Below, piece after piece: positions 21,406 through 22,123 of a stretch of 64,000 bases of DNA. The position numbers and the translations under genes are program-made. The notes below the pieces were generated by a model. That model saw only the letters and a program-made list of their open reading frames with translations. It ran no database searches and was not told the origin of the DNA. The DNA is from Phyto melanocephala (lineage: Eukaryota; Arthropoda; Insecta; Diptera; Rhinophoridae). The stretch lies in assembly GCA_941918925.1 (NCBI GenBank), contig OW799237.1:71789626-71853625 (forward strand), written 5' to 3'. The stretch's first letter is position 1; each line of letters opens with the position of its first letter.

Positions 21406-22123
21406 CAAGGTCTATTAAATAAGGTCTGTGCAACTCTACAAAAACAAAAACAAAAAACAATATACGGGCATTTTGTTAGTGTAAAATTACTCTAAGATAG
21501 TCAAAAACAGCTGACTAAAATACCAAAAAATTCATCCAGGTGAAATTATCAGTCCATCTGATGGGAATCGTTACTGTCAAACTCTATGTATAAAAAATTA
21601 TTTTTTATGAGGTATTTGACAGAGAGCAGCACAGCAAATTCGCCGTTGCATATACCTGTATGAATATGCCCAACGCCTATTAAATTTTGTTTTCATTTTG
21701 TTTAACAATTTTTCAGTTTTCAAGACAACAAAAATAAATTGTGTTAATTATTAAAAAGTAAATATTTGCTAAAAAAATATGGCTAATGAAGATAAAATAG
21801 AAGTCTAGACGATGTTTTGAAGAAGCGTGCTGTTTCACAAGGTATGTTGGGCCAGAAAGATGCTCGTTTCGCTGCTGGTGTTGTACAAATGGTGCGTGAA
21901 GGCAAAATAGCTGTTGGTGTGGCTCAGTCCTTGGGTACAGAAACGCCTTTTACCAGCATGTCCGGCTCGGAAATATATTCGTTAGAAAAAATAAAAATTA
22001 TAAATCATAAAATTGAAAAATAAACAAAAAGGTAAACAAATTTTGACAACTTCGAGTAGTAAACATAGGGGAGCAAAAAACGATCAGCTGATTAGTTGAA
22101 CAGACCTTATTTAATAGACCTTG
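21406..22123 (+). mobile_element. hAT-type non-autonomous transposon carrying a reptin fragment
   Basis: The 718-bp element has inverted repeats CAAGGTCTATTAAATAAGGT continuing CTGTgCAACT; the first 24 bases are identical on both ends, then one mismatch and five more matches. Both ends are flanked by the 8-bp duplication GATTCACA (21398-21405 and 22124-22131). An 8-bp TSD and a terminus fitting YARNG (CAAGG) are hallmarks of the hAT superfamily. No transposase is encoded. The cargo is the 5' end of a host gene (next entry). Confidence 0.88.
21779..21985 (+). pseudogene. rept: Captured, internally deleted reptin (RuvB-like 2) 5' fragment
   Basis: Reptin is an AAA+ ATPase of the INO80, TIP60 and R2TP complexes. 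The ATG at 21779 opens MANEDKIEV, like the reptin N-terminus. After a deletion of about 20 codons the sequence resumes [36 protein letters not shown], then, after a second deletion that removes the Walker A loop, [25 protein letters not shown]. The second deletion lies between the words KIA and AIA, suggesting microhomology. The first deletion leaves the frame shifted so that TAG follows the first nine codons. Preceding bases may be captured reptin leader. Intron-free continuity suggests a cDNA or a single exon source. Confidence 0.88.

Follow-up and report, generated by a model that had tools for sequence, protein, structure and literature searches.

A Short P-Superfamily Element with Captured Reptin DNA in Phyto melanocephala, a Likely Internal-Deletion Derivative of 5.2-kb Relatives

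Introduction

The 718-bp element at positions 21406-22123 of the analysed DNA is, with high confidence, a transposon of the P superfamily and not of the hAT superfamily. Its ends match those of 5.2-kb elements that contain a P-type transposase gene together with reptin sequence captured from genomic DNA, and it is best explained as an internal-deletion derivative that was spread by the transposase of such elements. The window, as the whole stretch is called here, comprises 64,000 nucleotides (G000:C5:71789626-71853625) of an assembly whose 9 contigs total 739.8 Mb.

Results

Structure of the Element in the Window

The element is bounded by two 30-nt terminal inverted repeats (TIRs) at 21406-21435 (+) and 22094-22123 (-), which are complementary at 29 of 30 positions (97%), and it is flanked by copies of a target-site duplication (TSD), GATTCACA, at 21398-21405 and 22124-22131, identical at all 8 positions. 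These recomputed values agree with a preliminary description of the sequence, which had reported a TIR transposon with 30-base repeats containing one mismatch and a perfect 8-bp TSD. The left TIR forms the outermost part of the reptin-side end and recurs in two full-length relatives, L092 and L094. The reptin-side end as a whole, approximately bases 1-126 of the element (21406-21531), is common to L092 and, via L092, to five other longer relatives (L074, L077, L078, L079, and L080). It is followed, at approximately 21532-21685, by a stretch that is mostly missing from the older relative L074 and present in L092. This stretch, which separates the P end from the reptin untranslated region, terminates in CAACGCCTATTAAAT, which has 87% identity to the beginning of the TIR.

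The captured reptin sequence consists of the 5′ UTR at 21708-21778 (+), which is 73% identical to the host gene over the UTR and first codons, the start codon with its short frame at 21779-21808 (+), and exon 1 coding sequence from LDDVL to GSEIYSLE at 21803-21988 (+). The transposase-side end, at which larger relatives encode a THAP domain, is joined to the reptin part and occupies 21993-22123 (-), the second TIR included.

Captured Sequence and Parent Gene

The peptide encoded by the cargo matches the Pfam family TIP49 (1.1e-12), and its best PDB matches are RuvB-like 2. In a genome search for TIP49, 117 of 523 candidates were scored, among them two host genes, pontin on C1 and reptin on C3, and more than 100 fragments; L041/L071, considered as reptin, were dropped because the locus is pontin. 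The parent gene lies at C3:21025739-21027063 and is 88-90% identical to the cargo (within host locus L091, the ATG is at 3390, the intron at 3858-4150, and the stop codon ends at 5119). All of the cargo in the window belongs to exon 1: it starts in the 5′ UTR, includes the ATG, and ends with SGSEIYSLE, and its two coding pieces are at 88% and 90% identity. The Pfam match, the PDB matches, and the host alignment all uphold the earlier identification of the 5′ end of reptin, and the element, like Pack-TIRs, holds between its TIRs non-transposon sequence with an identifiable parent.

It had also been proposed that the start codon, and possibly the leader and promoter, were captured, such that the cargo could be transcribed. 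The ATG and 5′ UTR are present. Upstream of the ATG, no more than 84-97 bp can be recognised as reptin, so that a captured promoter is at best a possibility, and a transcript would offer a frame of only nine codons. This frame starts at the ATG at 21779 and spells MANEDKIEV before a stop, a consequence of the absence of 58 nt of reptin after KIEV; the long reptin frame (LDDVL to SLE) is a different one that does not contain the captured ATG. The same nine codons and stop were found in all eight copies translated. In addition, ~54 nt of the P-loop are missing from the window copy, at ~21913-21916; six of the seven other translated copies keep them, and the exception (L007) has a separate loss.

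Relatives with the Same Ends Encode P-Type Transposase Domains

A THAP domain is located at the end opposite reptin in L074, L073, and other relatives. That of L073 matches PF05485 at 1.2e-8, with P transposase as its best PDB match (1.7e-5), and the decayed domain of L074 scores 0.039, below the cut-off. Searching for THAP sequences turned up L092, which is 5,241 bp long, shares the TIRs of the window copy, and is flanked by a perfect TSD (GTTTGTAT). A second full-length copy, L094, is 5,250 bp long, also shares these TIRs, has a perfect TSD of its own (CATAGATA), and is 98.6% alike to L092.

Seven segments of L092 were scanned against Pfam. Matches were obtained to THAP (PF05485, 1.9e-10), to RNaseH_N (1.1e-17, accompanied by the P HTH domain at 4.5e-4, below the cut-off), to the GTP-binding domain in one segment at 0.096 (below the cut-off) and in a second at 3.6e-10, to RNaseH_C (2.9e-9, with DUF7833 at 0.088, below the cut-off), and to the P C-terminal domain (2.3e-5). 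On the opposite strand, TIP49 was matched at 1.2e-26; the transposase and reptin sequences are convergent. The order of the domains fits an RNase H-like core that is split by a GTP-binding domain and followed by the P C-terminal domain. The family combines several features of the P superfamily: 30-bp TIRs, 8-bp TSDs, an N-terminal THAP domain, a split RNase H-like core, and a P C-terminal domain.

The preliminary description had assigned the element to the hAT type, and a non-autonomous element moved by a hAT transposase would account for the 8-bp TSD and for the CAAGG...CCTTG ends. The TSDs also lean towards T at position 2 (19 of 45) and A at position 7 (26 of 45), which is the target preference of hAT elements. 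However, YARNG ends and 8-bp TSDs do not discriminate between the hAT and P superfamilies, whereas the sequence between the same ends in full-length relatives encodes P-superfamily domains, and the seven scanned segments of L092 yielded no hAT domain. The assignment to hAT was given up, and its probability appears very small. Subterminal repeats of 11 bp have been described for Drosophila P (PMC7776569); for L092 and the window copy, a search of the ends that was restricted to exact words did not find such inverted repeats and returned the 7-bp words CAGCTGA and GTCAAAA in the window copy and only A-rich words in L092.

A search with a transposase exon, which is blind to the cargo, identified three places in the genome with 99-100% identity over the full exon. 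Each of the three has a TIP49 match on the opposite strand, 3.8-4.6 kb further downstream; two of them are L092 and L094, which were read, and the third lies on C4 at about 59,194,700-59,206,000. The next transposase relatives are at most 83% identical, except for a 59-residue fragment at 92% (C2:40967934). In L093, a relative whose match covers part of the exon at 83% identity, the sequence contains reptin as well. L093 is likewise among the 22 best places of the THAP search, outside the at least 12 of these that have a listed TIP49 match within 11 kb according to a comparison by eye. The generality of reptin was judged only from the transposase and THAP searches, since the element and TIP49 searches find reptin by construction.

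Other P-superfamily families are represented by at least 87 PF12017 matches (150 of 223 candidates scored) and by many transposase relatives below 83% identity; judged by these sequences, P elements look diverse in this genome. Matches to PF12017 mark many P families, and the link to the element in the window came from the THAP and exon searches.

The Window Copy as a Deletion Derivative

When the window copy is compared with L092, its bases 1-590 correspond to the reptin-side end (87%) and its bases 588-718 to the THAP-side end (89%), with an overlap of 3 bases at the joint. The intervening 4,469 bp of L092, including the transposase gene and the remaining reptin sequence, are absent. Because both ends are shared with the 5.2-kb relatives and the middle is missing, the window copy is likely an internal-deletion derivative. 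It retains both P ends, lacks a transposase, and is repeated as a unit with TSDs, as P-MITEs are. Full-length relatives are the likely source of the short copies, which cannot make transposase. Transposase activity is not claimed for L092 and L094 themselves, because the gene of each seems to carry at least one coding or splice lesion.

Copy Number and Recent Spread

A search with the element DNA gave 833 candidates, of which 40 were scored; each of these covers at least 78% of the element, and all 40 loci were read, in addition to loci from the TIP49 search. The match of the element with its genome copies is not due to chance. Among 52 loci checked for TIRs, a pair was present in 49 and missing from L026, L040, and L064. 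The TSD is perfect over 8 bp in 41 of the 49 pairs and has at most one mismatch in 45; the TSDs of L003 and L024 match after a shift of one base, and those of L077 and L079 do not match.

A junction inside the captured reptin sequence, at which KIEV is followed by LDDVL, occurs 349 times in the genome (148 + 201) with at most two mismatches, a count that includes any copy sharing the joint, long or short. A control with the reversed pattern occurred 0 times genome-wide. The copies are numerous, as the preliminary description had envisaged. The junction is absent from older relatives such as L074.

For a comparison of distances, 46 loci were entered and L026 and L040 were dropped for want of a TIR pair. 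The remaining 44 copies, 617-978 bp in length, differ from their majority sequence by a median of 1.3%, a value biased towards likeness because the sample consists mostly of best-scoring copies. Two pairs, L015/L016 and L024/L067, are identical in their aligned bases and reside at different places in the genome. The identity of some copies indicates a recent spread.

The best-scoring copies are near-identical to one another, yet their cargo differs from host reptin by a dS of 0.22-0.37. P elements are known for horizontal transfer, and this pattern could be explained if a different fly species had been the site of the reptin capture and the element had arrived here afterwards. On the other hand, old members of the family, with ~76-88% identity to host exon 1, are also present in this genome, which suits long residence. 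Arrival by horizontal transfer is therefore considered unlikely, while keeping an appreciable share of the probability.

Source of the Captured DNA

The five longer relatives measure 1.4-2.3 kb, have the same TIRs, and contain more reptin than the window copy. Each has suffered internal losses of reptin; together they span 97 bp upstream of the ATG, exon 1, the terminal portion of the intron including the splice acceptor, and exon 2, and they extend past the stop codon, the sequence beyond which is matched by L077 and L079. In L074, a member of one clade, and in L092, L094, and L088, members of the other, one and the same novel joint links exon 1 to the final portion of the intron, behind which comes the acceptor AAG/GTCACCC. 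A reading of this joint as the mark of a spliced copy, based on the ends of blast matches (host 3789 beside 4098), was rejected: given the true intron at 3858-4150, the joint proves to be a plain deletion, after which the intron still retains its 3′ end.

Taken alone, the window piece, which falls within one exon, is compatible with an RNA source, and it could represent a retropseudogene that landed in the transposon by chance. The larger relatives point the other way. Because they still have the 3′ end of the intron of reptin and jointly extend beyond the stop codon, the captured material was genomic DNA and not cDNA, which settles the choice between DNA and RNA that the preliminary description had left to be decided; the intron remnant in L074, L092, L094, and L088 differs from the precise intron loss of a processed pseudogene and excludes a spliced retrocopy. 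That description had also allowed for reptin-free copies elsewhere and an independent retropseudogene insertion, and the copies recovered by the cargo-blind transposase search hold reptin. A retropseudogene has next to no probability on this evidence.

The joint shared across both clades favours a single capture of the genomic reptin sequence. In a tree of the cargo (32 rows), a branch with support 95/94 separates 15 older copies from the host gene, L085, L093, and the modern clade. Since the host gene falls on the side of the modern clade, the case for one capture rests on the shared joint and not on the tree; the branching pattern is compatible with one capture and neither proves nor excludes it.

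Reptin-bearing pieces were also seen in tandem, with three pieces at ~4-kb spacing and a P-family TIR in each unit at L084 (G000 C3:50079000-50088990), and two pieces at ~4-kb spacing at L076 (G000 C3:44529500-44537900).

Constraint on the Cargo

Stops occur within the cargo codons in 14 of 18 copies. The dN/dS between cargo and host reptin ranges from 0.22 to 0.61 and lies at 0.3-0.5 in 15 of 18 copies; a free copy of a constrained gene is expected to give about 0.5. Values somewhat below this yardstick may reflect some early constraint or divergence before capture. As far as the coding sequence can tell, the reptin cargo looks like a passenger.

Alternatively, the cargo might be kept for a function, either as antisense or small RNA acting on reptin or as a truncated protein. 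Because reptin lies opposite the transposase in full-length copies, read-through, as in the convergent arrangement of L092, would be predicted to yield reptin antisense; the 349 junction copies and the room that dN/dS leaves for early constraint are in keeping with such a role. Against it stand the captured ATG, whose frame ends after nine codons, and the frequent stops, and retention for function appears improbable. It might even be that the P element uses the captured chromatin gene as a tool, in that antisense and small RNA would lower germ-line reptin and loosen the silencing of the element, which would explain why the reptin start was kept in hundreds of recent copies; we hold this to be quite improbable.

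Other Features of the Window

A 361-aa open frame at 10616-11701 (-) contains an HTH domain (PF16087, 2.8e-10); by eye we take this frame to be mariner-like. A shorter frame at 14264-14773 (-) looks related to it and has no Pfam match at 0.001, and PF16087 is also matched at 3173-3589 (+) (2.8e-5). Toward the other end of the window, a frame with an RNase H domain (PF00075, 8.1e-14) at 62350-62988 (-) likely derives from a retrotransposon.

Discussion

The findings suggest a route by which a host gene fragment may have become the cargo of an abundant transposon. An ancestral P element would have taken up a genomic stretch that began ~97 bp ahead of the reptin start and continued past the stop codon. 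Uptake would have happened once, at a break or replication fork that was copied from the reptin locus, and the cargo would then have shed pieces during continued transposition. Copies that retained both ends and no longer had the transposase would have been moved in trans and would have multiplied recently, with the reptin start being copied as a passenger beside the reptin-side terminus.

The family resembles the P elements of Anopheles, for which TIRs of 27-31 bp, 8-bp TSDs, THAP domains, and masters of 4.2-7.5 kb have been reported, and the P-MITEs of Anopheles gambiae, which number 5-310 copies and keep both P ends (PMC1562414). Common to both are the TIR length, the perfect 8-bp TSD, THAP-bearing masters, and short derivatives with both ends. 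In contrast, the account of the A. gambiae P-MITEs, in its available part, has them matching no P element internally and names no source gene, whereas the internal sequence here comes from a named host gene that is also present in the full-length element (PMC1562414).

Capture of host genes by TIR transposons has precedents. A survey of 100 animal genomes recorded 370 Pack-TIRs, of which four were multicopy (1.4% by that paper's count) and, in the portion of the paper available, none was in insect reference genomes; Ssk-FB4 of D. melanogaster exists in four copies and took nearly the whole gene with upstream DNA (PMC8277862). The present family shares with Pack-TIRs, Ssk-FB4 included, genomic host-gene DNA within a TIR transposon and differs in the 349 copies of one cargo junction and in carriers that encode transposase (PMC8277862). 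Drosophila P elements supplied with artificial transposase have gained non-P DNA, likewise, by capture of flanking DNA or by gap repair (Tsubota and Huong 1991, Gloor 1991, cited in PMC8277862); those captures were artificially activated, and the accessible text mentions no natural high-copy family (PMC8277862).

Beyond these, a hAT element of Pseudocercospora captured the gene of a housekeeping protein, histone H3, and reached hundreds of copies (PMC6710886); that case concerns a fungus and a hAT element, and its copies were inactivated by RIP (PMC6710886). Turmoil-1 of C. elegans is another animal DNA transposon into which coding sequence was transduplicated (PMC2572040), but, unlike the window family, it is reported to hold the captured sequence within its inverted repeats (PMC2572040). 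No P element with captured reptin, nor a comparable P family, was found in the open-paper literature searched (PMC). Each of the three components, gene capture, P-MITEs, and high-copy cargo, has been described before; what is new, as far as the open papers searched show, is their combination in an animal P element whose transposase-encoding copies include the gene as well.

In one broad animal survey, multicopy capture by cut-and-paste elements was rare (PMC8277862). Here, the older relatives, the carriers with transposase, and the fresh deletion derivatives are found in a single assembly, together with a legible parent gene and a cargo junction that occurs 349 times. How capture led to amplification, and whether the many copies affect the parent reptin gene, can therefore be tested directly.
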